A stretch of 64,000 bases of DNA from Branchiostoma floridae (lineage: Eukaryota; Chordata; Leptocardii; Amphioxiformes; Branchiostomatidae): contig NC_049981.1 of the NCBI RefSeq assembly GCF_000003815.2, positions 20,702,505 to 20,766,504 of the forward strand, in the 5' to 3' direction. Position 1 is the stretch's first letter; each line of letters opens with the position of its first letter. Positions 3,601 to 51,200 of the stretch are shown here, piece after piece. Below the pieces are notes generated by a model, which was not told the origin of the DNA, searched no databases, and saw only the letters and a list, made by a program, of their open reading frames with translations. The translations under genes and the position numbers were made by a program.

Positions 3601-6600
3601 GGGGAGCAGTCCTATATGTACACTACCTCTTTTCATACAGATCTTTTAAAATTACTACAAATACCCACCAACTGTTGCTTGGAGATAGAGAGGCTCTTGG
3701 AACCCATGCTCGGTTCCGGCGGAAGTTTGCTCATCTTTTTCAGCTGCACGTCCTCATGCACGTGCTCCTCCTACATTGGGTGAACGGAAAATGTGGGATG
3801 TTTGTACTCACTTGGCTATAACTATTGTCCGCCATGCTGGATGGTTAAACCTGATGGTTAAACGTTTCCAGGTAGATTCTAATGACTTGCCACCAAGTAG
3901 GAGCATCATTATCATACAGCCTTAGACAATGTTAGACAGTTAGATGTATAGAGTTTAGGTGTGACAGGTTGTTCAGTGTAATATCACCAGCTACATCTGG
4001 CCTCTATGAAGCTTCACATGTCTATGGATAAATAGTGAAAATTGTTCGAACAGCTAGAAATGCCATAAGAATTAGCTGGCCTACATGTACAGTTGGCGCC
4101 AACAGTACTTGTACTTTTTAGTCGGTTAACTCCACTTGTATGTCATCTGTAAACTTTGGTCAATTTCTACTATTTTTCAAGAGACGTGTGGATGCGAAGC
4201 TGGTGTGTTACGTCGGAGGGTGTGTGTGATGCTGGCTATACATATACAGAATTCTGTACTGGTGTTTTACGCTGAAGGGTGGTTATACCGGCGATACAGA
4301 TGCAGATATAGATGGCCTCACCTCGTGATGTCCATGGGAGTGGCCATGACCACCAGGCATGATGAAACTCATCACTCGCTCAAAGACGAAGAAGAAATAG
4401 ATGCCGCCCATGGCGACCAGGAGCTTCCACATGTAGGCTATGTCTTCTGCCCCGTGGTCGTGGTCTGCATGAGCGGCATGGTCCCCGTGCAGTCCGAGAG
4501 CCTGTGGTGGGAGATACGGACAAAGGTAATGTAGATATCCGGTAAAGGTAAATAAAACCGGTGTATTTTGCCAGCCAGTAGGTACCCAATGAGTAATGAG
4601 GCCGATTAACGTGGTCGAGGCACCTCCTCGAATACGGGACCCCCGTTTTACGTCCCTCCCGGAAGACGATTTCGTGGAAAGGTCCCATAGCTGTAGGGAC
4701 AGTGGGTTGGTAATCCACTGTGTCTAGGGCATGGTATTGAAAGGCGGATCAAAGAACTGCATATCCAGTTAAGGTAAAGGTAAAGGAAAAGGTCCCATAG
4801 CCGTAATAACAGTGGGGTTTTAATGGGCGGCCAGGGCTGTTAATCCACTCACCCCGCCCCTTTCACTTCCCCAACCGAAGTCAGGTACCATTTACACCTG
4901 GGGGCTGGGTTCGATGATGACATTCGTGTAAAACGCCTTTTCCATGGACACAGCATCTGTCTAGCCAGGAATGCCAAGAATCAAAACCGTGACCCCTCGA
5001 TCTTACGTCCAGATATCTAGTACTGTACTCCACTGATAAGCATATTTTTGCACCGGTTCGTCAGATACAAGTGTCCCTTACTCCACCTGTTCGAAGTACT
5101 CTGGAGCTCACCTGTGGTAGCAGGTGCAAGAGGGCATCCCCCGATAGCGCCCCGACTCCCAAACCAACCCCGAGCTGCACGATGAACTTGTAGACGCTGG
5201 ACCCAGCCATGGGCAGCACTAACAGGCCGATCAGTGCCAACAGGCTGATGAGGAAGACAGACAGCGTTCCGTAGCCGTATTCTGTGGGAGGACAAGGTAA
5301 GTCATTTCTGGTTGCCGTCAAATCAGATGATATATTCCCTTTATAATCTAGCTTAATTGTATTCTCGATGCCGTCAAATCAGATGCTATGTTCCCTTTAG
5401 TGGGTGTCTCATTGGACTGCGCCAAATTGTGATAGGAAATTGCGAATTTGTGTACTACTTATGATTTTTCATTGCGGTCACATTACACGCATTTGCCAAA
5501 CCTCTATCAGGCTCCGTGGATTGCTGGATTGTAAATAGTAGAAATTGTACAAAATGAGGGAATAATGTGCTAGGGGAGTCGTTTCCCAGGGGTGTCACTG
5601 TCAGTACGAAGGTAACAAACTTACTTTCCAGCATGGTGAGCTCTCCGACAACAGGAGCTGCCGTTGTGTTAGGGGTCGGTGTTTCCCCCACACAGACCCC
5701 GCTGTAGACCTGCTGGAGCAGGGCCGGTGCCATGGCGCTGAACTGGTCACGGGTAACCCCCATCTCCGCCTCCACCAGGAACAGCTTCATTAACTGGGCT
5801 GAATTGAAGCACTGCGTACAAAGACGTAAGTGTACGTTACCGCTGTGTTCTCTTTTTGTATGTTTGTTTTGTATAACAGGTAAACTGCCTATTTTGGCAA
5901 ATACAAGCAGGTTAGCCTCCTTGGTAAATACCAGTTTTGTACGTTATGTTGTTAGGTACAAGCTGCATAAGACAGCCGTGATCAACTTACACCTGGATTT
6001 ACCACAGGCCTACTCTTGTCGATAAGTGAGGTGAGTTTGTGCTCGAGATGTGACTCCTCAAACTCGGGGCCTCTGGCTAAACGTCCAAGAGGGCGTCACT
6101 AACCTATGTATCTATTTGCACCTGAGTTGTGTGATTGAGAATACCAGGGACACATACACACATGTAGTCTTTCAGTATACCCTTACTACAGACGTCATCC
6201 CGTTTCAACATGAAGTCCAGCCGTGTTTGCTTTGGTCCGCCCCAGTCGTCGCTAGGACTCAAACGGCTAGTCCCGTTTGGCATCACGCAAGGTAATGCTG
6301 TCCAACACAAAGTAGATGTAACGTTACTCACGGTGTGGTGAAAGTCCTCTGTGTGTTCGTGGCTATGGTTGTGATCGTGTTCGTCCTCCCGTGTCAGCGG
6401 AGGCAGATCGCGCCTCCGTCTGTGGTCGTGCCCGGCATGGTCGTGCCCATCGTCCACCACCGGCGGCTCAGGCGGCGCCTCCCCACCGATACCGAACGCC
6501 GACAGGATGTGCTCAAGAGCTGTGGTGCACATGTATGAGACAAGACTTAACACAACACTGTTGATGATCTAATACGAATGATTGCATGATAGTCCGTTTT

Positions 6601-22239: not shown

Positions 22240-25200
22240 ATGAAGACTTTCGCGCTGGTATTGATCTGTTTGGGAGCCGCAGCTGGTAAGTTTGACTCCC
22301 TGCGTCTACTGTCTGGATGTTTTCCCTGTGTACTGTTTATTTTCATCCCTTTTCTGCAGAATATGAATGTCTGAATGCTGAACAAAACTTATACGTGGCA
22401 GGGTGTAATTAAACTCATACTAATATTGCTAGTAGCTAGACAAGATAGGTCATCCCCTGCACTACGTTTTACCATTGTCTTGTCCACGTCTTGTTTTAGC
22501 CCTTGACACATTATCAGCTGTATGATCTGACGACATATGTTAGAGATGATGATATCCGGATGAATTAATATCGCTCGTTGGTTCCATATTGCAATTTTCC
22601 GTCTCTAAAGATTCCATATTCCAATTTTCCGTCTCTAAAACGGACATCGCCATTCCGAACGGTCGTCGCCATAAAGCTGACTAACCTTTATACCCCTGTC
22701 ACATTATCCACGATCTTCGGGCGTATTGATGGAAGATCGGGCATATTTAAGATCGACAGGGGGCAGGGTTGCGCATATTTTTTACATGAAAACCGTCCCT
22801 GTCACATATAAGAAATACTTTGTACCTTCTACAATCGTTGTGCAATAAAGTTATTATCATAAGCGAGGTATGGGCGATTGCCCCCAAGACTCATCATCCA
22901 ATCGATTTTCGCGCAATGTGACAGGTGTATTTCCAGATCAGAGTGTTTCATGACTAACAAGAACTAAAACGTATGTAAAGAAACATTCAGATTACAAATA
23001 TGCGACAGTGATGTGAGAAGGTGTAAATCACTATCTAAAAAAAGAAAGTGTGTCACTTCGCGTTCAAACCCAAATCAAAAAGCCAAAACCCTGACACCTA
23101 ATGATAAGCAACTACGTAACAAAACATAACGCTATGGAAGGAGGTTAATTTGGTAATACAGTTAAGGTGACTGAGCTTGCTAACGAAAGTCTGATGGAAA
23201 GGGGATACAGTAGAAGCCATGTCAGTTAACAGCGCGGAATCCCAAAATCCCAAACCGGTGCGGTCCAGCTGGATAACTTAGCATTATTGCACCAGCCGGA
23301 TAATTGAACGAAATACGCTGGAAAATAGGCTATGCAATTAAATGGTTTCTACTGTATTGAAAAATGTAGAATTAACATCGTCTGACCATGTCCCAGCCCA
23401 GCTGTGCACTGTGAACCAGTTCCAGTGTGCCAACGGGAACTGCATCCCGCTCCTCTGGGAGTGTGATGACTACAACGACTGTGGAGACAATAGCGACGAG
23501 CACAACTGCGGTGGTAAATAAAGTCTGTTGATTATACTTAATTCCATACCACAGGTATGGGAGAAAATATATTGTTTTTTCCTATTTTGTTTTTCTTCTT
23601 CTCTTTCCTTTTTTTTGCATTTGGTGAATATGGACTCAATTCTTCCATTTATTTCAGGAAAATGACATGAAATGTGGCAGTGTGGTGTGGAGTGGGACCA
23701 GATTTTTGTCAGCCTCTAAATTTTTTGTGTGAACGTTTTTGGTTTTTATTGAACCAAACATGTAAATTTTTGGCTCATGTGACCTGAAATGTGGCACGGA
23801 GGTGCTTATGACATATGCTCACATAGCTGTATTTGTACAATTGGTATACACCACTTAACGTTATTTCATTTGAGGATTTTTAGCTATTTTCAGACCAAAA
23901 ATGTATATTTTACTTTCGCAATAGTGACATTTTCTTTATTTTCGCAGGTACCGGTGGCACCCAATGCGGGATAAACCAGTTCCAGTGCCTGAATGGCGGC
24001 TGCATTTACAGCAGCTGGGTCTGTGACGGTGACAACGACTGTGGCGACATGAGTGACGAGCAGAACTGCAACGGCGGACCGGGGGGATCCAACCCGCTGG
24101 CTGCGTGTGGCGGGAACTTGAACGAGACCTACGGCAGCATCAGCCCTCCTTACAACGACAACCAGGACTGCATCTGGACCATTACCGCCCCCGTGGGACA
24201 CTTCATCGAACTGGAGTTCACAGCCTTTGATCTCGAGGATGGCGGATCTTCCTGCAGGTTAAACAAATAGGTCCTGTTTGCACCAGTGCTCCAGGAAGTA
24301 GGAGTAGTCCCGATCAGGTTCTCAAGCCAATTTTCTTTCCTTTTGATTTCCGGATACCGCGGGGGTACCGCTCTGCGTTTTTTTACGATTAGGTCACGGC
24401 GTCTATTTGTTGACGGGTCACGGGTTGATTTTAACTCCGAGTCAAAGAAATCCTGGGGCCTGGCCCTGACCATGTAGGCGTGACACCCGAAACTGCAGAA
24501 AACAGCCCGTAAACTACCCACAGGGGCCCCTTTTAAGAAAGGGGACCTTGACATTACATCGATTATTATCACTATACCATAAAGTGTTCAATTACATCTC
24601 ATGTAGTAGAATGAACTGGTTCTCCCACTTCGTTCAAGCAACGCTTAAGATGAGTGATGAATGTCACTCGAAGCGTGCGGAAGTAATCCAGTTGTAAATA
24701 CTTTAAATTGTTGTCTTTGAATATTGTCAACCTTCATAAACGTGTCAAGTGTTCTATTTTAGCTTTGAAGATTATCTGTGTTTTTCGATACTATAATGAA
24801 AGAGTTAAACATGTTTCCAACACAAGAAACAAAATCACCGTGTTGGGAGTTTGTGTTTGAAGCATGCATGTATAATTCTTTCCAACTACATTGTTCTAGG
24901 TAGAGCCTTGCCCACGGGTTTATACAATATACTAAAGGAACGCTCTGTTAAACCGGTCTGACGTTTCAACTTTTGTGGGCGTGGCCTAACCAGCTGGCAG
25001 CCAATCAGAATATCGACTGCACCTGTATCCAAAGAAAACATTAAGGTGATTCTCTGATTGGCTGACAGATGGTTAGAGGCCACGCCCACAGAAGTGGAAA
25101 CCTCAGCCCGCTTTAGCAGAGCGTACCCAAGGTATATTATATTGTACATTCAGGCCGCGTGCAAAGTTCTGCGTGAAAGAATGTATAACCACAACTCACA

Positions 25201-26551
25201 TCATTTCCAGCTATGACTATGTTGCCGTGTACGACGGCGCCGACACCAGCGCCCCGCTGGTCGGTAAGTACTGCGGCAACACCATCCCGGGCCCGGTCCA
25301 CTCGCACAGTAACGTGCTGACCGTCAGGTTCGTCACCGACAGAAGTGTCACCGAGACCGGCTTCAGGCTCATCTACACCACCACTGACGAACATCCTGTT
25401 CACCGTGAGTCTGCTACTTATTCTATATAGCCGATAATGTCGATTAAGCAGGTACTAGGTATCACATTGGACAGGGGCAAATTACGTCATGCATTCGCAA
25501 ATTGACTCAAGGTGGCGCAAAACGGTAAACACCGTTTATGACTACAAATCAATTTTAATTACTTTTTAATTATTGTACATTAGTTTCAATTCAGTGGCAA
25601 CACTGCGATTTCCAATGAAGTTATCTTGTATCGAAACTGACAATGCAACATTCCGGGCGCGGCCATTTTGTTGGCTTATCTGAGATTCATATTTTGCGTC
25701 ACACGTCAGTGTGGCCCCAAAGAAAAATTGACGCATATTCGCAAAGTCGGTAGAAGTTCCTAGGGCAATTTGGCCACGTGTGATTTGGCACATACCAGTC
25801 AAACAGTCACGTCAGCTAATTGGTCCGCTCATTAGGACATACTAGGTTATGAACTTATGATGCTGAAAGGCGGGTCCATGTACTTTAATAATGCATTAAG
25901 AGGCTCCCTTTAACATACATGTTATGTTCCCCAGCGTCTGGCTGTGGCGGTCCCGAGCTTCTGACTGCTCCAACAGGTAACTTCAGCAGCATGAACTACC
26001 CCAACAACTACGACAACAACGCGCAGTGCCAGTGGGAGGTGGGTTTCTATGTTTGGGGTGCCGTTTATCTCTCTGCCTCTCTCTGTTCGGACAATTGTTC
26101 AGTGTGTGATGAATCCAGTCTGTTTCTATGACACAATGTTTGATCATGATTGATTTTTGGCAGATCGAGGTGGAGGCCGGCATGAGGATCAACCTCATCT
26201 TCACCGCTTTTGACCTAGAAGCAGAAAGACTCTGTCCTGTGTCCAACGACTACGTGGAGGTCTTTGAGAACGACGTTGGTCTAGGTAAAGTTCAGCAGAC
26301 TATTTTGATCTATAATTTCAACAGCATTGACAATTACAAAACACGAAGAAAAGTTGATCTATCTTTTGGTGTACCTTTTTCCACTAAAAATGAGATTCTT
26401 ACAATTTTGCAATTCTCTGCCAGGTCGCCATTGCGGTAACATACAGCTGCCCCCGATCACTTCTACTGGCAACACGCTGAAGGTGGTGTTCTACAGCGAC
26501 AGCAGCACCACCGCGTCCGGCTTTTCAGCGCAGTACGTGACTATTCCGTAA
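22240..26551 (+). CDS. CUB gene B: secreted LDLa-LDLa-CUB-CUB protein, 7 exons, 339 aa
   Basis: Exons: 22240-22285, 23397-23513, 23948-24257, 25211-25404, 25935-26038, 26164-26284, 26424-26551 (TAA); 1020 nt, all phases consistent. Signal peptide [16 protein letters not shown]. Exon 2 is one LDLa domain (CTVNQFQC...[23 protein letters not shown]). Exon 3 fuses a second LDLa (CGINQFQC...[15 protein letters not shown]) to the first half of CUB1. Both LDLa domains keep the acidic D-x-x-D-C-x-D-x-S-D-E calcium cage. CUB1 and CUB2 resemble gene A throughout. It is probably a secreted calcium-dependent binding protein with no known ligand. The tail of the last exon and the following ~100 bp are almost identical to gene D. 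Confidence 0.88.
23206..23356. mobile_element. TA-flanked mini-transposon, copy 2
   Basis: It starts TACAGTAGAAGCCA and ends TGGTTTCTACTGTA, 151 bp, about 40 bp upstream of the LDLa exon of gene B. It matches 10856-11020 along most of its length. It may contribute sequence just upstream of the splice acceptor region. Confidence 0.75.
24928..25121. mobile_element. Foldback MITE in intron 3 of CUB gene B
   Basis: The left arm (ACGCTCTGTTAAACCGGTCTG, then GTGGGCGTGGCC and AGCCAATCAGA) is mirrored by the right arm (TCTGATTGGCTGACAG, GGCCACGCCCACAGAAGTGG, CTTTAGCAGAGCGT). Arms are about 80 bp. The CCAAT-type and GC-box-type motifs in the arms are features of the repeat. Confidence 0.7.
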
Positions 26552-27079
26552 ACAACGACATACAAGAGGGTAAGGTCAGCTTTTCTTCTCACCATGGCTG
26601 TTTGGGTGACATATTTCCTATCTTTGCGTGAAATGTTATGGGACTGCTGTAGTGTATAACATCTGTTGTGTACATAAGCATCCAGTGAACAAGAAAAACG
26701 GAGGTGAAAATGTAAGGTGTGTATTTGCTTTCACCATCGCTCCTTTTGATAGCGTTGGAGGTTTCACAAATGACTCTGGAATAGATGAATTCTAGCATTG
26801 TCTTGCATGTTACATTACTTACGTGTGAGCAGATACTCGACAGCAAGCAAGGCCGTTTTGAATTTCAGCAAGCGAACAAGAAAAGCGAACATATATTATA
26901 TATTCAGTTCTATTCCACACGAAGTACTGCTTTGAAAGGACTGATCAAACCTTTGTCATTCCAGGGGTCCTGAGGGGTGAAGCTGTCTTAGCGAGATTGT
27001 TTGAAGATCACAGTCATTTGTATAACTTCGATTCTGGTGCACCATCATATAGAATAAGAGAGATCCCAATAAAATTGTT

Positions 27080-28193
27080 GAAGTACTTAATGTTGGTGTT
27101 TTTTTCACATACATGCAATCTGCTTCAACGTAGCCTGAAATGGCCATTACATAAAAGATACACAATACATAGGCTCCAAGTGCTGGTTCTACATTTTCCT
27201 CTAGATTCGTCCAACAAGGAGGGTCTTTTGTTTTCCTCTGTTCTGTGCACAATGAGAAAGTGAGAGTCTAACATGATTTATACGAAGGCCAGAGGTCATG
27301 ACTACCAAGATGGCGTCGACGTCTGTTGAAGTAGAGCCCCATCATTATGCACCAATCCTCGTTTAAGATAGATGTGTTTTTGTGACATCTCTCTGCAACA
27401 TTATGCGGTATGTTATACATGTTGTAATTTAGAGTGTAATTTTTATGTTCGACACTTTACAAGCTGTACCGTTTGGATTAAGACACAACATCAAACCCTA
27501 CCTGCATTGCACTGGTCTGTGATAGTCCTTGCATCGGCATAACGTCAAATTTCTATCACAAGTGTATTTAACAGTACTGGTTAACTGCAACTTTTAAATA
27601 TCCAATACAAACAGTCTAAAGGGAATATTGTTGGGGGCTTCTTGGCTTTCAGTGGTGCCGATGAGCTGACCTATGTAGTCCTTGTAGGAAGCTGGACTCC
27701 AGGTCAATATTGGCCAACGGTGCCTCAGTTAAACCTTTATTAGCGGGTATCCCACTGAAGCTGCAACACGGTGGTGACCTCGGTGGGGCGGAGAGATTGC
27801 AATTTGTTAGTGCGCTCAGCGAATCTATTTTACCGATAAAAAACGAATCTCCTAACGTTTTGTGTGTTTCGTTATCCTTTTAGCTAAACATGTACGTTTA
27901 CATGATATTTCCATTACAAATTCAAGGATTACTCAAATCAAACGTCAGTGAGATACCAGCTTTATAACTATGTTGGGAGGCTTGTTTCGCTATTTACATT
28001 AGCTAACTGCAAACACACGTGAAAAGTGACACACAGGAAAAGGAACAGCTGTATTTTCGGCGACGCCTGCCTTCACGTCAGGGACATTGTTCTATTTGCA
28101 CTCCAGAACAAATAGCATTAAATAATCTAGACGTCATAATTAGGCCAGATGACTAATGCGGAGGTCACATTTGGTATAATAGAGCTGTGCAAG
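27080..28193. other. Intergenic stretch between CUB genes B and C
   Basis: No coding region is recognised. The last 170 bp carry the upstream module of gene C. An AAGATGGCG motif near 27307 sits in a repeat-like context also seen near 21720. Confidence 0.6.
28092..28134. promoter_or_regulatory. Upstream dyad module of CUB gene C with matched changes in both arms
   Basis: CTATTTG (28092-28098) and CAAATAG (28109-28115), with a 10-bp spacer, are followed by GACGT at 28130-28134. Against genes A and B the left arm has G to A and the right arm C to T at the mirrored position, so the dyad stays perfect. The ATG is 79 bp downstream. Confidence 0.5.
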
Positions 28194-31100
28194 ATGCAGA
28201 CACTGGTGCTAGTACTGCTTTACTTCGGGGCCGCAGCTGGTAAGTTACTTCTTTCACTGCATGTTGCAGGCCTCGAGGTTTTGTTGGTGTCTTAATTGTA
28301 ACATTGATGAAAATTTGCAAGTACAAATATGGAACGAATCATAGTAACATAGTCATACTGTTTGATATTGAATGCTCACTACGAAGCTTATGAAATGTTA
28401 TGGAACGAAATATCCAAATACTGTGTAAATACAGTTTCAAATGCACCCATTCGCTAATTGTAACCGTTTGCCTATACTCAGCTCACAGAATAAACATTAC
28501 AAATTTGGAATAAAATATTGATTAAGATACATACGTGGTGGATTAGAGGCTCGGAATGTAACTGTTTGTGAGTTTGCTTTAGCACGACAAGGCATTACCT
28601 GTTTCCTGTCACTGCGTCCTTTTCCCGGCATTAAGGAAGCAGACAAAATTGCTACGTACATAATACCTTTAAATGAAACATTGTATAGCGAGGCACGAGT
28701 TTGATTAAGTTGATCTTATGATGAAGGTAAAGTATCATTAAAACTTGTGAAACCATTGCTTGTCGAACGATTGAATAGTAAAGTTAAAACCGCCTCTTGA
28801 CACCTGTATGATAACGCATGTCCAGGTCAGGTGTGCCACGATTACCAGTTCCAGTGTGCTAACGGGAACTGCATCCCGCTCAGCTGGGAGTGTGATGACT
28901 ACAACGACTGTGGAGACAATAGCGACGAGCAGAACTGTAATGGTAAATAGACCATGTTCTTCTATTGTAGAGTGTAACGTATACCTTATATAACACATGC
29001 TCTACACGCAGAAGTGCTCACAATGCTGAAATGCTTACATTTGCAAGATGTGATGAAAATGATGCACCAACAGTAAAATCATCATGCTGAAAAATAAAGC
29101 TGTCTCTAGCTTTAAATTTTAATCTGCCCCACTCATTATTTGGGAGTCATCTGATATTTTAAGCTTACGAAAATAGTTGTTTTACGAAAAATATTTATTT
29201 TCCGGAAGGATGTGGAGAGGCCAATTAAGGATGACGACTTTACCTTACCTTAAGCTTGAACCGCTGACGTTTCAAGTCATTGTTTGAAACGAACAAAAAT
29301 CACATTTATTCTTCATTAAACAGAACACAAATTAGCTAACTGATAGAAAATCTGTAGGATGACAGCACAGCTGCTTGTTGTGTCTGTATATGTCTCCAGG
29401 CGGCACACAGCAGTGCTCGGCATCCCAGTTCCAGTGCACCGACGGCAGCTGCATACCCACCGTCTGGGTCTGTGATGGCGACAACGATTGTGGCGATATG
29501 AGCGACGAGCAAAACTGCAACGGTTGAAATCTATTTAACCTTAGTGGCGTTGTCCTTTCTGAAAATTTTGTCAACGACAAAGATGTGTATTGCTAAAATA
29601 ATATCTATAAACCAGCCACATATTCAACTTCATTTTCTAACCGTCCGTTATCGATTAGTTCATGTAGTATTTCTCTGTTGTTATTTGTTATCCAAAGTTC
29701 AGTTAATCAATTCATTCAATGATTAATTGTTTATTTGGTTTCAATTACAACTACTTTTGTAGGTTGTTTTCTATCTATTTTTTATCATATATAGTCTGTA
29801 CATTCATAACTTGTTGTTCATTATCACCTTCAGTTACTATTTTGTAAGTCTATGAATGTGGAAGGACTCGTATAGACCTTATTGGTCTCCATGCTACCCA
29901 ACACAATCCAATGTAACGGCACTGTGTTTTTCCTTTTACAAAATAAATAAAAAAATCGAAGAATGTTCCCCTCAGGGGAAGGTGGACTGGCGACATGTGG
30001 TGGGTTCCTGAACGAGACTGCCGGCAGCATCAGCCCTCCGTACGGCAACAACATGGACTGTATCTGGACCATCAGCGCGCCTGCGGGCTACTTCATTGAG
30101 GTGGAGTTCACAGCCTTTGACGTCGAGGATGACGGATCGTCCTGCAGGTCAGACGAATATTTTGTTGAGAACGTCTGCTGCTAAGGTCATGGTTAATAAA
30201 GGGCGCCTATCGGGTAGTTCATGGACTTTTTTTCACTTTCGGGCGTGACCCTGACCGGCTGTAAATCCGGGCAGATTTTTTAAAATTCCGAGTTAGCCGA
30301 GAGGTACCCCACGGTGTCCGGGAGCCCAACCGGACAAAGTTGTGGCTTTGAAGCCCAGCCCAGCCGGGGCTATGTCTGACCTGAGAATCACATCATGACC
30401 AGTTAAGACTATAAAGTCTTCAGTTACATCTCATGTACTAGAATTGACTTGTTTTGTCTCTGCATTCTAGTGGCAATAACGAAGAGTGAGGGATGTTACT
30501 CGAAACTTCCGGAAGTAATCTTTTGTATCATACCTAGTTATAACTTCATTGAATTCTCTTTAAGCACTGTTTGCGTTGATGTCTAACCTCTATAAACGTG
30601 TTATGTGTTCTATTGTAGATTAAAGATTACCTTTGCTGTCCGATTGTCAAAGATGTCCCTGTAACTTAACTGGTAGCTGCCTTACGTTTAAGCTCCCAAT
30701 GCTAATCAGTTGGTAGGTGGGAGACCCGGCTTATATCCTGGGATGGGCATAACGGTTGGGGCTGCAGTAATCTTTCGGAAGGGACACAATGAGACACCTC
30801 GATAACAATAAAGGGAAGGGCTAACAAACTCTCCTTGTAAAAATAACAATATAGGTACGTTAAAGGGGGATGACTAGCCATCCCCGTAAGATATATCTTG
30901 CTACATGTACATAGAAACAGCAAGGAAAGTTGTTGACCAATGTGTCACTAGGTACTACAAGGTGAATAACAACAACATCAGTTTGTCAGTAGCTACCAAT
31001 TGATGTAAATTTTAGCTTTAAGTTACCTCTAACCAGATCCTCTGTACTTGTCAGATATGACTATGTTGCCGTGTACGACGGCGCCGACACCTCCGCCCCG

Positions 31101-32552
31101 CTTCTCGCCAAGCTGTGCGGCAGCACCATCCCGGCCCCGCTCCGCTCACAGGGCAGCGCTCTGACGGTCAGGTTCGTCACGGACTCCAGCATCACGGAGA
31201 CCGGCTTCACACTTGTCTACACAACAACAGACCAGCAGCCCATGCACGCTCAGTTCAAAACTCCTTTCTATCGTGTCCTATGGATGTGCATTCTGTATTT
31301 CCTATACTTTCCATATTGTTTTTGCTTCCACTCCTTATTCTTCCAATTCCTCTTCGTTCCAAACATACAAGGTCAACGACCTGGACCATGAGACATTTAC
31401 CATGATAACTGGTAAAGTAAGAGAATCCCAGTGTCCTATTACATTATGTAGCAAGTGGCAGGACAGAGTTTGTGGGACCGGTTACAATATATATATGCGT
31501 TTGTGTAGCAGTAGAATAAACAGAGCAATTATAGTTTGTCTATGTTGAGGCAAACAGTATGTATTTGTCTGCAATTGTTACCTTTCTAATTAGCGGTCTT
31601 CATCATACCACAACAGGCCAAAGTCACATAAAGTCGGTTTTATCACGATCTGTTTTCCCCAGCGTCTGGCTGTGGTGGTCCTAAGGAGCTGACCGGTCCC
31701 TTCGGCGACTTTTTCAGCATGAACTTCCCAAACAACTACGGCAACAACGCGCAGTGCAAATGGGAGGTGAGCTGGAAAACATGCCATTTTCACTTCTTGC
31801 CCTCAACAAGAAGCTGTCCGCGTGTCAACATGATAACTCTGTCTTAATATTTTGTTTGTGGATAGATATTTTGTTTGTGGATAGAAAGTTTGTTTGTGGA
31901 TAGATATTTTGTTTGTGGATAGATATTTTGTTTGTGATGAGATCTCGAACTGGTCAGATTTTTGCCCCCTTGGCGGCTTTCTACGGTAATGCAGTGAAAC
32001 CGGTGTTAATACTAGTATCTCGTGTCCTGGACTTGCTATGTGGTCATGATATTAACTTCTTAGATAGCTCTTGTTTTCCAATAAAAGATTGCAATCCTTA
32101 CTCTTGAGTAAAATAAACGCAAATGGACCCCTTTTACCATGTTATGAACACACTCACTGCTTGTTCTGTAACTTTTCTTTTTAGATAACGGTGGAAGCAG
32201 GAAAGAGGATCAATCTGGTCTTTCCTATCTTTGAACTTGAGACAGAGAGAGACTGCAACAACGACTTTGTAGAAATCATCGACAACAACATTTCTCAAGG
32301 TAATACATGCAGCTTTCAGCAATTTATTTTACTATTGCCAAGACCTACTGTAACATCCCATATGCGTTATACTTTGTACACTGAAGTATGTCTCTTGTAT
32401 TTTCCAATCCTTTGATAGGACGTCTCTGTGGTAACCTCAACGTGCAGCTGCCACCGTACACTTCTATGTCCAACACGCTGTCTGTGATGTTTTACAGTGA
32501 CGATAGCACCACCGCGACGGGCTTTGCTGCCCAGTATACTACCATTGTATAG
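28194..32552 (+). CDS. CUB gene C: LDLa-LDLa-CUB-CUB protein with a lost donor site
   Basis: Exons: 28194-28239, 28826-28942, 29400-29522, 29976-30147, 31055-about 31273 or 31372, 31663-31766, 32185-32299, 32419-32552 (TAG). Signal peptide [16 protein letters not shown]. LDLa1 has [23 protein letters not shown]. LDLa2 is on its own exon here, not fused to CUB1 as in B and D, and its donor (ACG-GTTGAA) is weak. At the end of exon 5, where the paralogues have CACC-GTGAG, this gene has CACG-CTCAG, so the donor is gone. In-frame phase 1 substitutes are C-GTGTCC (after 31273) and AAG-GTCAAC (after 31372); otherwise translation stops at TGA near 31389. CUB2 is the most diverged of the four. The gene may be functional with a longer linker, or decaying. 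Confidence 0.7.
31853..31935. repeat. Short minisatellite in an intron of CUB gene C
   Basis: A unit of about 18 bp (GTTTGTGGATAGATATTTT, with one variant) is repeated four to five times. Confidence 0.7.
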
Positions 32553-38979: not shown

Positions 38980-39960
38980 CCTTGGATGGATCCCGATGAT
39001 ATTTGGTAGGTGGATAGGGGTCGGGAAAACGAAGGTCAAATTCGATAATGGGCCCCCTAGCGGCTTGCTAAGGTACTGCAGCAGAACCTCAATATTTGAT
39101 ATCTCGTGTTCTGGACATGCTGTGGTTATGATTTTTGAGTGGTAGATAGCCCTTGAGACAGAGAGTAAGTACTATAAGTTTGGACCCCCTAGCGGCTTGT
39201 TTGGAACTGCAGTCGCCGATTTCCTTTCAAACTTTGGACGAGAATAACTCGAGAACGTGTTGATGAATCATCACGATTTTTGGTATGTAGATAGCCCAAG
39301 TAAAAATGTACATTATGAAATACTAATTATGCAAATCAGGAACTAATTTACATAATTAATGAGGAAAGTTTATAAATCCACTGCATTTCATGATAGGACT
39401 TTCAAACTTGTCACATGTATAGATGAGAAAGAGAGAAATATCAATGCATGTTAATTATGCAAATGATGACCTCATTTGCATAATTAATGAGAAAATATAA
39501 ACGCATTGATGGATCGTCATGGTTTTTGGTATGTAGATAGCCAAAGGGAAGACTTACATGATGGAATCCTAATCATGCAAATCAACACCTAATTTGCATA
39601 ATTAATTAGGAAAATGTGTAAATCCACTGCATTCCTTTATAGGACTTTCAAACTTGTCACATGTGCAGCTGAGAAAGACAGAAATATCAATACAAATTAA
39701 TTATGCAGATGATGATCTCATTTGCATAATTAATGGGAATATAAACGTGCTGACGGATCGTCATGATTTTTGGTATGTTGATAGCCTAAGTAAAACGTTA
39801 CATAATGAGATACCAGTTATGCAAATTAACAGCTAATTTGCATAATTAATGAGGAAAGTTGATAAATCTACTGTATTCCGTGATAGGACTTTCAGACTTG
39901 TCACATATGTAACTGAGAAAGATGGCAGAGAGTAAGAGGTGTATGTTTGGGTCCGCTAAC
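38980..39960. repeat. Tandem ~245 bp repeat with paired ATGCAAAT-type motifs
   Basis: GGTATGTAGATAGCC-type blocks recur at about 39281, 39528 and 39769, giving a period near 245 bp and about three units. Each unit contains ATTATGCAAAT...ATTTGCATAATTAATGAGG pairs and a GATAGGACTTTCAAACTTGTCACAT block. The flanking part carries the CTCGAGTTAT and GCAGTACCTTAG motifs seen inverted at 32940-33960. Confidence 0.75.
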
Positions 39961-40349
39961 GTCTTTTCTTGAACTGCAGGAGCCGGTTTAGTTTCCTAAT
40001 TTGAAAGATAATAAGTCAAGAAGGGATTGAATGGATCATCATGATTTTTGGTATGTTGACAGCTTAAGTGATGCTTGATACAATTTAATATTAGTATGTA
40101 AATAGGGATCTAATTTGTATAAGCAATGGCAAAATGTTATGAACCAACTCCAGGCATATAAAATAAAATATAATGAGTAGCACATTTATGTCTTCAGACA
40201 TCATTCTACATAACAAACCTGGTTTATTTGGCAAAGGTATGTGTTCGTGGAACTCTAGTGTAATATTTTGGTGATCGAACAGGACGTACAAAATCTATAG
40301 AATGTAGGGAGTACTTTTAGGGGTCTTATTAAGAAGTTGTTACTCGTTT

Positions 40350-43053: not shown

Positions 43054-45861
43054 TTATTTATCTTTCTGTTCTGTTTCCATGTGCCGTTCTTCAGCATTTT
43101 CCTTGTCAGGAAACGTCACATAGGTGTGGTCAGAGTCATCGCCGGCGTTTTCCGTATCAGGGTGTGTCAAATTGGTGTGGTCAGAGTTATCCCCGGCGTT
43201 TTCCGTATCAGGGTGTGTCAAATTGGTGTGGTCAGAGTTATCCCCGGCGTTTTCCGTATCAGGGTGTGTCAAATTGGTGTGGTCAGAGTTATCCCCGGCG
43301 TTTTCGGTATCAGGGAGCGTTATATAGGCGTGGTCAGAGTCATCGCCGGCGTTTTCCGTATCAGGGAGCGTTATATAGGTGTGGTCACCGCTGGCATTTT
43401 CCGTATCAGGGGGAGTTACATACTCATCCTCTGATGCTTCAGTGGCACCTAGAAAAGTGGAGACAGGACTTTTGTCTTCAGCTTTGCTCTCCAATTCTCC
43501 ATGTTCTGTCTCTCGTTCTGCTGATCTGTCCCCAGGTAACGACATATAGTCGTGATCTGAGTCGCTGTCGTCATCGGCTCTTTCGGTGGTGTTTGAAGCG
43601 TTGGCGGTTTTGTCGTTGTCATAGTGGCCAGCTGTCTGTTCTCTGTCATCAGATGCCCTGCCGGCTGAGGTTGCCGTAGCATTCCTGTCGTTTAGGTTTC
43701 GTCTCCCATCTTTCCTGTCGTTGTCATATTGTCCACTTGCTTGTGCTTCAGCATGGATAGCAACAATGTGTGAAACCGACATGGCCATTTTGTTGTTCGA
43801 CACAGCTCGAGTTGTGGCCAAGCCCCTCTTGTTCTGACTAGGTCTGGTCCTTTTGGCTGTAGCAGAAGAGGGTGCGTTCTCTGGTTTCACGCTGGTTGGT
43901 TTGCCTGGTGCTGTCTTGTTTAAGTGTTTACTGACACCAGCATCGGAAAACTGGTCATCGTTCTCATAGTGACCACCGGTGGCTCCATCAGTGTCTGACA
44001 ACTGGTCATCGTTCTCGTAGTGACCACCGGTGGCTCCTTTAGTGTCTGACAACTGGTCATCGTTCTCGTAGTGACCACCGGTGGCTCCTTCAGTGTCTGA
44101 CAACTGGTCATCGTTCTCGTAGTGACCACCGGTGGCTCCTTCAGTGTCTGAAAACTGGTCATCGTTCTCATAGTGACCACCGGTGGCTCCTTCAGTGTCT
44201 GAAAACTGGTCATCGTTTTCGTAGTGACCACCGGTGGCTCCTTCAGTGTCTGACAACTGGTCATCGTTCTCATAGTGACCACCGGTGGCTCCTTCAGTGT
44301 CTGAAAACTGGTCATCGTTCTCGTAGTGACCACCGGCGGCACCTACAGTGTCCGAAAACTGGCCATCGTTCTCGTAGTGACCACCGGCGGCACCTACAGT
44401 GTCCGAAAACTGGTCATCGTTCTCGTATTGTGCGTTCTCAGCACCATCCGAGTCAGAGGACCGGCCACTGGTACCGTGGTGTCCGTCTCCAGCGTCCCTC
44501 TGTCCGTTGGCCCCGTCCACTTGAAACCTGCTCACACAAGCAGCGATCACGCCGATAATAATGGAACATCCACAGAAAGATCCCAGCCCTACAAGTATAA
44601 GCTGGGCAGCAGACAGTTCAAACTTTGGGCGATTTTTCTTCTCCTTGTCGACGACAGCCTTATCCCCTGCTGGCAGTGTGACGATCGTCACTGTCGTCTG
44701 GAGCTCCGGCATGTGCACTCTGGTGGTGTTCTCAGTGTCATTACTGAGAAGGAGCACTGCTGATGCGCTTGCATTGTCTGTATGGTCAGCTGTCACCTGA
44801 CATGTGTACGTGCCCTTTGTGTCGTTACCAACAGAGGGGATGTTTAACACGGAGTAGCACATTCTCCTTGATTCCCAGCTAGTGACGGGAGAGCCTTTGC
44901 AAGACGATCTGCTCACATGCGTGTAGTTGTTGGAGTACTGGTAGCTCGGTGGTTTGTAGTCACCACTTGGCGTAACCCACACGAACGCCAGACCTTCCCG
45001 ACAGTCTGTCCGGCAGGTGAGAGAAATCTTACCTGTAGCAGTCCCATTGTCTAAGGAGATGGACACATTAGGTGAGGCACATCTGAGATCCTTCCAATCT
45101 ACATCCTTTATTTGTTTTCTAGTATCACCGACCATGCACCAAATGTACCACCTCAGATGATTATTTTCGAGAAGCCAGCTCTTGACTTCTCTCAGCTTGC
45201 AATCGCACTGCAGGTGACTGCTTCTTAGACTCAGACTTACAGTAGTAGATATACGGCGTAGTTCCTCAACGTCTGTGATCCATGTGATAGGGTTATCAGA
45301 CAGCAAGAGTTCAATGTCATCAAATGACCAAATTTCTCGAGGAATGCCAGAAAGACAGTTATTATTTAGCGTCAGGAACCCTAGTCTGAAGAGCCCGACA
45401 AATGCTTTGCTGTCGATTTGATGTATCTCGTTATCCTCTAATTCCAAAGTGATAAGCGAAGCCAGGCCCTTAAATGTTTCCGGCTTCAGTTGCCTAATTT
45501 TGTTCCGACGAAGATTCAGTAATTTTAAGGACGGCAAGCTTGCAAAGGCCCCTCGATCTAGCTCCACCACATTGCTGTCCCAGATGTACAGACTCTCCAA
45601 AATCTCATGACGGGGAAAATCTCCGGCTTTGATTTTCCTGATGTCCTGCTGCCGTATAAGCAAGTATTGCAGATTCGTCGGCAATGCCAATGGTGCGGGG
45701 ATGTTGTTGAAATTACAGTTTTTCCAACACGTCAGTATTGATGCAAAGGGATTCAGATCACAACAATCCAGGTTTGATTGAACAGCTGTGCAACTTGATC
45801 TATTCCATGTCACTAAAAGCACTAATACAGTGATCAAATTTTCACACCCTAAAGTCGTCAT
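43054..45861 (-). CDS. Intronless LRR-Ig transmembrane receptor with two cytoplasmic 17-residue tyrosine arrays, 935 aa
   Basis: One uninterrupted frame from ATG to stop. A signal peptide (about 1-25) precedes a Cys-rich LRR cap (C33, C34, C45, C49), about five leucine-rich repeats at 64-190, a C-terminal cap (C220, C222, C242, C261), an Ig-like domain at about 262-375 (TYTCQV around C354), an N-glycosylated stalk, and one membrane span at about 420-444. The cytoplasmic tail of about 490 residues is acidic and low in complexity. It has ten copies of GGHYENDDQFSDTEGAT-like units (tyrosines 479 to 632, every 17 residues), two YDND sites (712, 747), YMSL (772), YVTP (814), and a second array with YITL (829, 846), Asn at 863/880/897, and YVTF (914). 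YxN is the known Grb2 SH2 preference; TYxx(L/I/F) resembles ITSM/ITIM. LRR-Ig receptors are expanded in amphioxus. Signalling role is inferred. Confidence 0.92.
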   Translation of the reverse strand: MTTLGCENLITVLVLLVTWNRSSCTAVQSNLDCCDLNPFASILTCWKNCNFNNIPAPLALPTNLQYLLIRQQDIRKIKAGDFPRHEILESLYIWDSNVVELDRGAFASLPSLKLLNLRRNKIRQLKPETFKGLASLITLELEDNEIHQIDSKAFVGLFRLGFLTLNNNCLSGIPREIWSFDDIELLLSDNPITWITDVEELRRISTTVSLSLRSSHLQCDCKLREVKSWLLENNHLRWYIWCMVGDTRKQIKDVDWKDLRCASPNVSISLDNGTATGKISLTCRTDCREGLAFVWVTPSGDYKPPSYQYSNNYTHVSRSSCKGSPVTSWESRRMCYSVLNIPSVGNDTKGTYTCQVTADHTDNASASAVLLLSNDTENTTRVHMPELQTTVTIVTLPAGDKAVVDKEKKNRPKFELSAAQLILVGLGSFCGCSIIIGVIAACVSRFQVDGANGQRDAGDGHHGTSGRSSDSDGAENAQYENDDQFSDTVGAAGGHYENDGQFSDTVGAAGGHYENDDQFSDTEGATGGHYENDDQLSDTEGATGGHYENDDQFSDTEGATGGHYENDDQFSDTEGATGGHYENDDQLSDTEGATGGHYENDDQLSDTKGATGGHYENDDQLSDTDGATGGHYENDDQFSDAGVSKHLNKTAPGKPTSVKPENAPSSATAKRTRPSQNKRGLATTRAVSNNKMAMSVSHIVAIHAEAQASGQYDNDRKDGRRNLNDRNATATSAGRASDDREQTAGHYDNDKTANASNTTERADDDSDSDHDYMSLPGDRSAERETEHGELESKAEDKSPVSTFLGATEASEDEYVTPPDTENASGDHTYITLPDTENAGDDSDHAYITLPDTENAGDNSDHTNLTHPDTENAGDNSDHTNLTHPDTENAGDNSDHTNLTHPDTENAGDDSDHTYVTFPDKENAEERHMETEQKDK
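43093..43428 (-). repeat. Coding minisatellite, 51-bp units (C-terminal array)
   Basis: It encodes residues 812-923 of the LRR-Ig receptor. The unit is about 17 residues, for example GDNSDHTNLTHPDTENA. Three central units are near-identical in DNA and carry AAT (Asn) where flanking units have TAT (Tyr). Confidence 0.9.
43939..44442 (-). repeat. Coding minisatellite, 51-bp units (YEND array)
   Basis: It encodes residues 474-641 of the LRR-Ig receptor: ten units of 17 residues, each with one YEND. Variation is mostly F/L after DDQ and E/V/K/D after SDT. The first two units (TVGAA) are the most diverged; the middle ones look recently homogenised. Confidence 0.92.
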
Positions 45862-47418: not shown

Positions 47419-48247
47419 AATTTGATAGATACTATCAACTATCGACTCTTTGAATCAACGTCGAGCTACGTGTAATCTAACTTAACTTGTATAATTTAGG
47501 TACTTACACTGTTCCTTTCCCTACAGGTTACTTCTATACCTTGTTAACATCGATCTGTACATCCCCGGTGTACCAATTTGCATATTTATAGGCCCCAAAT
47601 AAAGATTGAGGACTCGCTTTTCATCCATGCGCAAGTGCTTTGGCGTGAGTCAGAGATCAGCCACACACTGCGTACATACATATTCACCTTGTAGTACAGA
47701 CAGAAGGTACGCGCTCGAGGACAATTCCTCGAACACGGGACCCCTCTTTTACGTCCCTTCCGATAGACGAATCAGTTCCAACCAAGGTGTTCCCAGGGTT
47801 AGAGGCGGGGTCTCACAGTTACCGACAAACCAGGAGCTCATTTGTGACGCTGATACCAATAAAGCCACAGGGACATCTTTGTGACTAGGACAGGACAAAT
47901 GTTCCCAGAGTCTCATCTTATACGCACTGGAACAGCTGTTAGATGGGGTGTTGCCAGTCCAAGGTCACGGTAAGCCATCCGGCTAGAGACCCTGGAACCT
48001 GCGACCTTCAGCAGAAGGTTACTCCTAAGCAAGATGGCGGAGATGACACGTTCGACACTGTAGAAGGTTAGTAATACATGTTTGTATATCCGTTTCAAAA
48101 GTAGGCATCACAGAATGAAGAAATTCAATCAATTCAATCTTTAATGATATCGCTGTCGTCCGCATGTCATCATAGCTGTTATTTTCTCCTAATCATAATA
48201 ATGTAGCAATATCTGCCATTTTTTAATGGAAAAGTGATACCACATAT
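45862..48247. other. Intergenic stretch between the LRR-Ig and NACHT genes
   Basis: It holds an (AT)n tract at about 47382-47415, repeat fragments near 46420-46750, and a repeat with GGGACCCCTCTTTTACGTCC near 47738 that is also present near 4638. A CAAGATGGCGG motif, which resembles a YY1 core-promoter element, lies near 48030 and is followed by a GTTAGT donor-like site. It may be a 5' non-coding exon of the NACHT gene. Confidence 0.5.
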
Positions 48248-51200
48248 GTGCGTCCTTGTATTTTATGTACAGCTGTGGGTCTTGAACCCTTATCTGGACT
48301 GCCGATCGAAGACAGTAAGTCTTGGCCTACATCCGATCATCATGGTTTCACAAAACGCTGTTCTGCAAAGTGTCGTAAGGGGGCGCTCGATGAAGAGATC
48401 CTAGATGTAGAGCGAACGGTCAGAACATGTTGGGAAGAGATAGAAGAACAATGTAGGACCTGCCCGGGAGAACAGGGAGAGGTGCCTAGTCAAGTACAAG
48501 CCGGCTGGCAAGTAGTGCGAGTCTTCGTATCGTCCACATTTGCAGACTTCCACTCGGAACGGGAAGCACTGGTCAAAAAGGTAACACTACTAGTATCTTT
48601 CCTGTTCTCTCAAATGAGTTGAATACATCTTCAATTGGCTGAAAATAGGCATGAAAGCAATAAACCAGTTCAAAGCAAAGCAGTTTTGGTGCTTCTTAAA
48701 TTGTAGAAATAAAGGATGACTAGCGATGTTCACGCAACAGAGAACTGCAAGTTTAGGACTGATTAAAGAAACCAAATACGCTTTCAGCCATAAAAAGCAC
48801 CTATGTGATAACGTTATCAGTAAGTGGCTTGATCAATTGTTGTGTGGTGCCACCTTCCAGGTGTTTCCTGAATTGCACGAGTGGTGTAAGGGTCGCCAGC
48901 TACACCTGGTGGAATGTGACCTGAGGTGGGGGGTCCCCAAGGACTCCACCTCACAAACAACCATCAGCATCTGTCTGGAGGAGCTGGACAGGTGTCTCAA
49001 GGAGACAGATGGGCAGCCCTTCTTCTTGGCCATGCTGGGAGAAAGGTGGGTACGCAATCATATGATACGGTGTTTTTCAACAAAAGAATTATCGTTATAT
49101 ATACAGTACGGTGAAAATAAATAAAGAATTGATGACAAATTGATGCCTTGTGATTGTCCTTGTTCCCAGGTACGGCTGGATCCCCTCCATCCAGGACGTC
49201 TCGGAGGAGATCAGGGAAAAGTACAGCTGGGTGGACCACCTGTCAATCACCCACATGGAGATAGTCCGAGGTGCTGTTCGCTCCAACAACCCCAACGCCG
49301 CGTTCTTCCTCAGGGATCCTGACTTCCTGAAGGACTTACCTCAGGACCAGCTCGCCAACTTTGTGGACACAGCAGAACTTAATACTCAGCAACAAAAGGT
49401 TAGCAACGAGCATCTAACAGTTTGTGCTTTGTAGGCCCTTGAAACACGTTTAAGACATAAAGACAATTTGGATACTAAATATTTCAATACTGAAAGATTT
49501 AAAAGTAAAACGTTTGTGATCATCATTCCTTGTTTTAAGGTATCAAAAATGAAAATCTCCAAGTAAAGGTAAAGATAAAACGGTCAACTCTCAGATGGGA
49601 GACAAAGCATGGTGCTCTTTCGTTAGCTAGTAGTGCAACGCGGCTTCGCTACATCTCGCGTGGTTTAGGCAAGCATCCGGCCACCCATACTCTTCTCGAA
49701 AAGGGTGTTGGGTTCTTTTGAATTTACATTGATTTGACGTTTGGGGCTTATTAACGGGGCCCCCAGCTTTACGTCACCACCCGAAATGACGTATCTTGTT
49801 ACATGCATGACATGTCTAACCTTCATCGACGTAACTGCTTTCTTCATTCTGTAACTTTTAGGAGCTCAAGTCTTACTTGAGAACGAAGTTTCGCAGCCAG
49901 GTGTACAGTTACAAGTGTAAAGTCGGCAATGTTACAGAGTCGGAGGTGAGACATTCATCAAGCATCAATCTACGGCTTGCTCAAGGAAAACGTCTTAGTG
50001 TGCCACAAACCGATAGGGGGAATCTTAAAGCAGATCTCGAGGATCACAGCTGCTTTTAAAGTCGACGTTCCTCTAAAATGTGAAATGAAACTATTACCAC
50101 AATGCTATTTACACATTCTCATGAGTCCTTATTCAAGTGAAGATCTTTCTTACAGGTTCATTTATCTGGACTAGGAAAATTTTGCAAGCAAGCGGTGAAG
50201 ATTCTAAAGACTGCGATTGGCAGAAGATATCCAGAATCCAGGGGAAACATGTCAGTTCGTGACCAAGGTAACGTTACCATGATTTTCAGAACTTTTGCAA
50301 AATATGAAGAAAAGAAATGGACATTGTTGCCTCGTGTGGATAACGTTATATTTTAATTGAATAATTTCACAACCTTAACTGAAACAATCTGCAAGGGGCT
50401 CGGAGATAGACCACTTCTTCCTGACATTAAGTGCTACCTTTTTGTGTGTTGGCATCCATCTGTCTCGGATTTAAACAATACTACCTACCACAAGCAAGCA
50501 AAATCAACAGCATGTCAAAGGATACAAAACCGCAGTACGTACCAAGGAAATCCACCAGGAGGCCAAAAATCAACATGGACATTTGCCTTCCCAATCTACC
50601 CACGTACAAAATATCATCACAATCCATCTGTAGATTCTTTTAACTTAAAAGTTATTGCTGCAAAACCGGCCCAAACACAGCTAAACAGACATATCAGACA
50701 GACAGACAGATTACAGACAAACTAACTCATAATCATCAAAAACAAAAACAAACAAAAAACTATTTTTTTTGTAGGTAGAAAAAGTGAAGTCCTTGATTCT
50801 GCTAAATGTATCTCTTACATGTAACATTGCGTGTGTTTTTGCACTATCCCTAAAGCTGCCCTGCCACACACAACCTTCATGGAACAGAAAGGGCGTTTCC
50901 TGACAGGTCGCGATGCGGAGATGCAGAGGGTCGTGAAGTTTGCCCTGTCCCATTGGGCCAGCGAACCTTATCAAGATGTCTGTAAGGTGAATGACCAGTC
51001 GGACGTTTCCGGCGAGATCCCGGATGTTGACGAACGACCTGTGCTGTTCGGCGCGAGTCTTGAGCCCGTGTCACGTGACCGGAGCCTGATGGTGGTACTT
51101 GGAGAGTCTGGCACAGGGAAGTCACTGTTCATGGCGCGATGTGCGATGGAGATAAGGAAGGTCAGTTCTCTCTTCAGGAGCTAGTAAGAGGAGGCAGTTC

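Follow-up and report, generated by a model that had tools for sequence, protein, structure and literature searches.

A tandem tyrosine motif in a receptor tail may be a set of docking sites kept by selection or a coding repeat that has merely spread, and a locus of the amphioxus Branchiostoma floridae raises this question. The window analysed here is a stretch of 64,000 nucleotides (NC_049981.1, positions 20,702,505 to 20,766,504), which encodes on its minus strand a predicted receptor with leucine-rich repeats (LRRs), an immunoglobulin-like (Ig) domain and a long tail in which the motif YEND recurs ten times. YEND arrays occur throughout a family of paralogues that conserves the motif and turns over the number of units, and distant receptors carry such arrays with other spacers. 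An earlier note on this DNA had proposed multivalent docking of SH2 domains. We consider it likely that the protein is an LRR-Ig receptor with a repeated phosphotyrosine docking tail for a YxN-reading SH2 adaptor of the Grb2 type, a LAT-like scaffold in cis. Support for this, at the level of sequence, comes from a motif that is conserved across paralogues beside a nearly neutral spacer, from Asn+2 as the best conserved position, and from arrays of other periods in distant receptors.

An LRR-Ig receptor with two tyrosine arrays in its tail

The open reading frame (ORF) runs from ATG to stop without an internal stop codon; the earlier description of the gene as intronless fits this coding region and reaches no further, the 5′ untranslated region lying beyond it. 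Behind a hydrophobic start, read from the sequence, come the LRRs and the Ig domain that had been claimed (Table 1). The LRRs match Pfam clearly; the Ig domain, taken as a single sequence, stays under the Pfam cut-off but is backed by a profile of 19 paralogous segments that matches Ig domains of DSCAM (2.5e-7) and LRIG3 (7.2e-4), and also NCAM. A hydropathy scan gave a single hydrophobic peak over the cut-off used, at residue 421. Extracellular LRRs, Ig and one transmembrane segment together point to a transmembrane receptor of the LRRIG type. Vertebrate LRIG proteins have three Ig domains and Toll-like receptors a TIR domain; the Pfam matches of the window protein include no TIR and one Ig-like region, which places it with neither. 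AlphaFold2 modelled the ectodomain (~415 residues), as a single sequence, with a mean predicted local distance difference test score of 37, too low for use.

The tail, 495 residues of which 23% are acidic, is probably disordered and has one juxtamembrane cysteine (C442) and none deeper. It contains 17 tyrosines: ten in YEND, two in YDND and five in YMSLP, YVTPP, YITLP, YITLP and YVTFP. Twelve of the 17 are thus YxN, the composition expected from sequence of a candidate Grb2-SH2 docking protein. The YEND tyrosines stand at residues 479, 496 and so on to 632, all nine spacings being exactly 17, so the perfect register claimed for them is exact, and the two YDND sites reported with them were located at Y712 and Y747. 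The array is not a chance arrangement, because Tandem Repeats Finder (TRF) recovers it as a 51-bp repeat (43946-44427) with 9.5 copies, 95% matches and a score of 831. It is real at the position first given for it (43939 to 44442), although its whole units have slightly different limits (Table 1). A Pfam match to 'Bflower_2' over the array (0.0046, below cut-off) was rejected as composition noise.

Beyond what the earlier note described, the tail carries the YMSLP site and a second, C-terminal array of seven units. Four of these have tyrosine (YVTPP, YITLP, YITLP, YVTFP) and three have asparagine, with NLTHP in place of YITLP. Immunoreceptor tyrosine-based activation motifs (ITAMs) read YxxL/I-x6-12-YxxL/I and the inhibitory type (ITIMs) [SIVL]xYxx[ILV]. 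In the window protein, array 2 gives YITL-x13-YITL, outside the ITAM spacing, and the histidine two residues before the tyrosine of YMSL and YITL departs from the ITIM. The segment VSHIVAIHAEAQASGQYDND (window 43726-43794, residues ~690-712) precedes the first YDND site, and similar stretches were seen by eye in the tails of several clades.

The YEN motif is held while the spacer drifts

We searched the genome (513 Mb, 431 contigs) with the window protein and obtained 84 matches; all comparisons below are between paralogues of this one genome. Twenty regions were fetched and their ORFs read; a tree and tail counts were made from the 22 ORFs in which a transmembrane segment could be placed, one of them that of the window. 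The tree comprises the window clade, three other groups and two lone lineages, with ectodomain identity to the window protein falling from 95% to 31%; L024 and L028 are the most distant, on long branches whose placement is unsure. In the seven pairs tested, the ratio of nonsynonymous to synonymous substitution rates (dN/dS) was 0.40 to 0.64 in the ectodomain and 0.36 to 0.79 in the tail, values that fit coding genes subject to purifying selection; taken over its full length, the ectodomain gave no sign of diversifying selection.

YxN is present in every one of the 22 tails, from 2 to 16 times; the two lowest counts (2 and 3) belong to cut frames, and full-length tails have 5 to 16. It accounts for 210 of the 325 tail tyrosines, against 30.8 expected from asparagine content. 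In a wider set of 28 ORF pieces, with crude tail limits that may admit a few ectodomain residues, 378 tyrosines divided into 232 YxN, 90 Yxx[LFVIM], 8 YxxP and 48 other.

For the YEND unit itself, repeats were chosen without the Y column, which gave 209 units in 26 ORF pieces, 208 of them scorable. Tyrosine is present in 183 and missing from 25. The earlier note had held that loss of the tyrosine from an otherwise retained unit in related species would speak against docking; among the paralogues such loss is mostly not seen in YEND units, and is seen in three of the seven units of the window's array 2. When single columns were left out at a threshold of five matches, conservation was highest for N+2 (194/200, numbering from the tyrosine), followed by E+1 (190/203), Q+5 (186/208), Y (180/206), F+6 (168/207), D+3 (162/203) and H-1 (141/203).

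Between six clades, of which two consist of one ORF each, the ratio of nonsynonymous to synonymous differences (pN/pS) was 0.063 for YEN and 0.88 for the spacer; cross-ORF values were 0.076 and 0.84. Column by column, the between-clade ratio was 0.01 at N+2, 0.03 at E+1, 0.10 at Q+5, 0.11 at D+3, 0.16 at F+6 and 0.25 at Y, with spacer columns at 0.71-1.23. Since TAC (99) and TAT (84) are both frequent at the tyrosine, and the ratio is low for YEN and near neutral for the spacer, the motif is held while silent sites and spacer drift. The best conserved column, N+2, is the residue on which Grb2-SH2 specificity rests.

Unit number turns over within a large family

The receptor belongs to a large family and is no isolated oddity. 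In a search with the tail repeat, of a kind that the earlier note had suggested, the coding pattern YENDDQ[FL] has 103 exact matches in the 513 Mb, with none for the reversed-pattern control, and the 100 that were listed form 23 clusters, all in the window or in fetched family loci, so that the unit occurs at at least 23 loci. Among the matches listed in open-licence papers on amphioxus LRRIG, intronless, ITAM/ITIM or YENDD receptors, no such array was described.

The variation in copy number that the earlier note considered possible between individuals is seen here between paralogues. A recent duplicate lies on contig C15, with an ectodomain that differs by a synonymous divergence (dS) of 0.040. 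It has 12 units, one of them CEND, against ten in the window. VGAA-type units number six in the C15 copy and two in the window, and other units six and eight; more than one gain or loss must therefore have occurred. The homology continues for ~1.1 kb on the 5′ side of the ORF and for ~2.1 kb on its 3′ side, an extent that fits a duplication of DNA, and the copy could also be a retrocopy with long untranslated regions. Just outside the shared segment lies a 246-bp tandem repeat (window 39254-39922), adjoined by a ~310-bp element (39950-40271) that has dozens of genomic copies at 94-99% identity.

Locus L019 (C1:27967500-27976000), a receptor copy, has a premature in-frame TAG inside its YEND array and thereby offers a natural case for comparing tails with lost constraint. 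Among C-terminal x[VIM]T[LF]P units chosen without the Y column, the first position is Y in 71, C in 21, N in 4 and another residue in five; L019 holds 20 of the 21 cysteines, which occupy 20 of its 26 such units, all downstream of the TAG. One would expect this pattern if the tyrosines matter only while they are translated, and it could also stem from a single Y-to-C change spread by homogenisation.

One relative (L029+L030, C7:1463900-1468300) has a different tyrosine word, 17 tandem DYQ[AFSP][LI] units with a period of 14. These give YxxL-x10-YxxL sixteen times running, an ITAM spacing, with isoleucine in one unit. The exact pattern DYQALKF is matched 7 times in the genome (control 0), always within the stretch from C7:1458758 to C7:1465786; one match, on the opposite strand, is ~5 kb from the locus, and the remaining six are inside it.

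YEND arrays with other periods in distant receptors

A second coding pattern, YEND[DN]E, gave 98 genome matches (control 6) in 50 clusters, 22 of which have at least two sites. Pooling both patterns yields 70 clusters, 42 with at least two sites, and 124 of the 128 spacings of neighbouring exact sites are multiples of 3. Ten distant places were read, and the choice was not random: L031-L036 came from protein matches, mostly with the tail aligned too, and L037-L040 were taken for their several YEND sites. Nine carry between 5 and 10 YEN in a single frame (L031 8, L032 10, L033 9, L034 9, L035 7, L036 9, L037 10, L038 5, L040 6), and L039 has two only, in each of two frames. The periods, in residues, are 17 in L031, mainly 20 in L032, L034 and L035, 18 and 21 in L033, 13 to 22 in L036, 10, 11 and 21 in L037, 21 in L038 and 14 in L040.

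LRR and Ig models match L031, L032, L033, L034, L036 and L038. L040 (C2:27310000-27312600) combines six YEND units with an LRR match without an Ig match; no ectodomain was seen in the array's frame at L037, and at L035 (after a stop) and L038 the array frame differs from the ectodomain frame, through either an intron or a break. Identity between the window protein and L031-L034 and L036 is 22.5-27.8%, taken over the best BLAST piece. Tyrosine occupies 44 of 52 xEN[DEN] sites in these five loci, E and N being fixed by the selection of sites. Their flanks favour V-1, E+5 and V+6, as against H-1, Q+5 and F+6 in the window family, and what the groups share is therefore Y-E-N-D. Such a pattern would come either from several amplifications of this four-residue core or from an ancient array with replaced spacers, and either origin would mark the motif as the part under selection.

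Proposed mechanism

We propose that a ligand would cluster the receptor, whereupon a Src- or Syk-type kinase could phosphorylate the YEND tyrosines. In Jurkat cells depleted of Lck, amphioxus Lck is reported to restore the phosphorylation of a different LRR receptor from amphioxus (PMC8211107). Each phosphorylated YEND would be read by an SH2 domain that wants Asn+2, most likely that of Grb2 or a close relative, to judge from motif conservation. Grb2 SH2 recognises pY-X-N-X (PMC3787023), and Asn+2 makes main-chain hydrogen bonds in a beta-turn (PMC2888578). Several adaptors per tail might then cross-link receptors through SOS or adaptor dimers, by which one receptor would do the job of the separate scaffold LAT. 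According to a model, LAT can gel with Grb2 and SOS1 when trivalent, not when bivalent (PMC3291652), and the EGFR tail condenses with Grb2 alone (PMC9181613). More units would lower the phosphorylated share needed for a three-site threshold: in a binomial count for at least three phosphorylated sites, the half-point is 0.79 per site with three sites, falling to 0.26 with ten and 0.16 with 16. More speculatively, SH2 domains of another class, or an adaptor for endocytosis, might be recruited to the C-terminal Y[VIM]T[LF]P sites.

Evidence against and alternative explanations

Several points weigh against a Grb2-type docking tail. Asp+3 is not known to be a Grb2 optimum. By pN/pS the tyrosine (0.31 cross-ORF, 0.25 between clades) is less constrained than E+1, N+2, D+3, D+4, Q+5 and F+6, although pN taken singly puts it close to D+3, D+4 and F+6. 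Asn+2 is kept in all 25 Y-less units, five of which are one inherited SEEN unit at the array end in a single clade; loss of the tyrosine therefore does not visibly release the asparagine, an outcome that the picking of units favours. Conservation in the window family extends to Q+5 and F+6, so the unit may do more than bind SH2 domains. In L031-L034 and L036, the Y column has a pN/pS of 0.71 with low pS and TAT dominant, and with so little silent change the distant group lends no separate support. Homogenisation may also keep array motifs alike, unit difference being 0.27 within and 0.40 between ORFs. Finally, the Src SH2 domain also binds a pYENI peptide, with a half-maximal inhibitory concentration of 1.0 µM (PMC2888578).

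This last point bears on the alternative that survives best, unlikely though we judge it: the array would dock another YxN-reading or acidic-preferring SH2 protein (Grb7/10/14, Fes/Fer, a Src-type or lancelet-specific one), so that phosphotyrosine docking would hold and the Ras/SOS and LAT-like part would fail. Grb7 and others also read YxN, and the conserved Glu+1 and Asp+3 (pN/pS of Asp+3 0.14 cross-ORF and 0.11 between clades) are in keeping with such a reader. Asn+2 as the most conserved residue is instead what a beta-turn of the Grb2 type would ask for, and amphioxus Grb2 pulls receptors from gut lysate (PMC10199209).

It is very improbable that the array is a coding minisatellite, a harmless acidic unit that grew in number by slippage and whose copies stay alike through homogenisation, with no selected docking. 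The greater likeness of units within than between ORFs would suit it, as would the tyrosine-free units (three of seven) in array 2 of the same tail and the turnover of unit number between paralogues; YEN conservation beside a spacer near neutral between clades, and the recurrence of the motif with other spacers and periods, argue the other way. The heavy decay of tyrosine in L019, where translation is cut (cysteine in 20 of 26), does too, though one homogenised change would give the same.

We give equally little credence to a non-phosphorylated role, whether as an acidic Asn/Asp-rich spacer or as a trafficking signal (the C-terminal YxxL/F, an AP-2 motif, with Q+5 and F+6 as another hook), since the retention of Q+5 (186/208) and F+6 (168/207) and the 90 Yxx[LFVIM] among 378 tail tyrosines are set against distant arrays that share Y-E-N-D and not Q or F (E+5 in 36/52, V+6 in 29/52). 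Binding of the Numb type to NxxF was also considered and rejected, the spacing in the unit being N-x-x-x-F.

Relation to known systems

LAT is an adaptor with a minimal ectodomain and a juxtamembrane CxxC palmitoylation motif, a description from which the window receptor departs with its ~415-residue ectodomain and lone C442. The docking tail proposed here resembles LAT in having several YxN sites in a membrane-bound tail, LAT's three distal YXNX tyrosines binding Grb2 SH2 (PMC3291652). Whereas LAT has three sites, the window receptor has 12 (full-length relatives 5-16), in the receptor itself and mostly in tandem. The EGFR tail is likewise a multivalent phosphotyrosine tail that condenses with Grb2 (PMC9181613). 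Unlike EGFR, with its scattered sites, the window receptor has regular arrays and no kinase domain. A dose effect of tyrosines is known for CagA of Helicobacter pylori. Its EPIYA motifs are similarly repeatable and lie in a disordered tail (PMC5408210), but CagA is a bacterial effector with another motif and is unrelated to the window receptor.

Two amphioxus proteins are closer. BbLcLRR is an LRR membrane receptor with three tyrosines that Lck phosphorylates in Jurkat cells; in contrast to the window protein it has 699 residues, is reported with WSC rather than Ig, and is inhibitory, with the ITIM or ITIM-like sequences DDYATV, HDYSEV and HDYDDP (PMC8211107). The term YxN is absent from the text of that paper (PMC8211107). 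FrLRR is an LRR receptor coupled to Grb2 in phagocytosis, but it is anchored by glycosylphosphatidylinositol and tail-less; amphioxus Grb2 co-precipitates it, and its authors leave the mediator undefined, proposing one such as a co-receptor (PMC10199209). The YEND-tail family could supply that mediator, and offers candidates for the missing link from Grb2 to this phagocytic receptor.

Vertebrates are known to use multivalent phosphotyrosine scaffolds in the signalling of T cells and growth factors, and the lancelet appears to bear them serially on receptors, in a large repertoire. The observation of the earlier note proves real and belongs to something larger, a repertoire of receptors that share a repeated, putative docking word built on tyrosine. 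The natural range of 5 to 16 YxN sites in full-length tails makes the relation of valence to threshold testable on natural proteins. A broader proposal, which we hold at somewhat less than even confidence, is that YEND is a common docking word of lancelet LRR receptors: dozens with different ectodomains would have built arrays of their own period as LAT-like condensation scaffolds in cis, with the number of units tuning the threshold and one receptor using an ITAM-like YxxL instead.

Sequence features of the window

Table 1 Features of the receptor locus, in window coordinates
Feature	Coordinates	Strand	Evidence and remarks
Segment shared with contig C15	40986..46982		Main pieces 93.6% and 96.8% DNA identity; gene + ~1.1 kb 5′ + ~2.1 kb 3′
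Uninterrupted ORF, 935 aa: N-terminal leader, LRR, Ig, stalk, transmembrane segment, ~495-aa acidic tail	43054..45861	minus	ORF search; leader read by eye from sequence
LRR region with N- and C-terminal cysteine caps (aa ~38-262)	45076..45750	minus	Pfam LRR_8 5.1e-20; cap limits by eye
Ig-like domain and part of stalk (aa 258-385)	44707..45090	minus	Pfam Ig_2 0.0071 (below cut-off); profile of 19 paralogous segments
Transmembrane segment (aa ~417-441), limits approximate	44539..44613	minus	Hydropathy 2.47, 19 residues from 421
Array 1: ten 17-residue units, one YEND each (Y479-Y632)	43927..44436	minus	TRF and motif positions
YDND site 1 (Y712)	43717..43728	minus	Motif positions
YDND site 2 (Y747)	43612..43623	minus	Motif positions
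YMSLP site (Y772)	43534..43548	minus	Motif positions
Array 2: seven PD[TK]EN units, C-terminal	43081..43431	minus	TRF 43115-43387 (51-bp repeat) and motif positions

Elsewhere in the window, 48227-51184 has matches to DUF4062 and to AAA/STAND ATPase-like domains, all below Pfam cut-offs, and 4283-4723 has a ZIP zinc transporter-like match, also below cut-off. Low-density lipoprotein receptor class A and CUB domain matches lie in two frames at 23884-31391.

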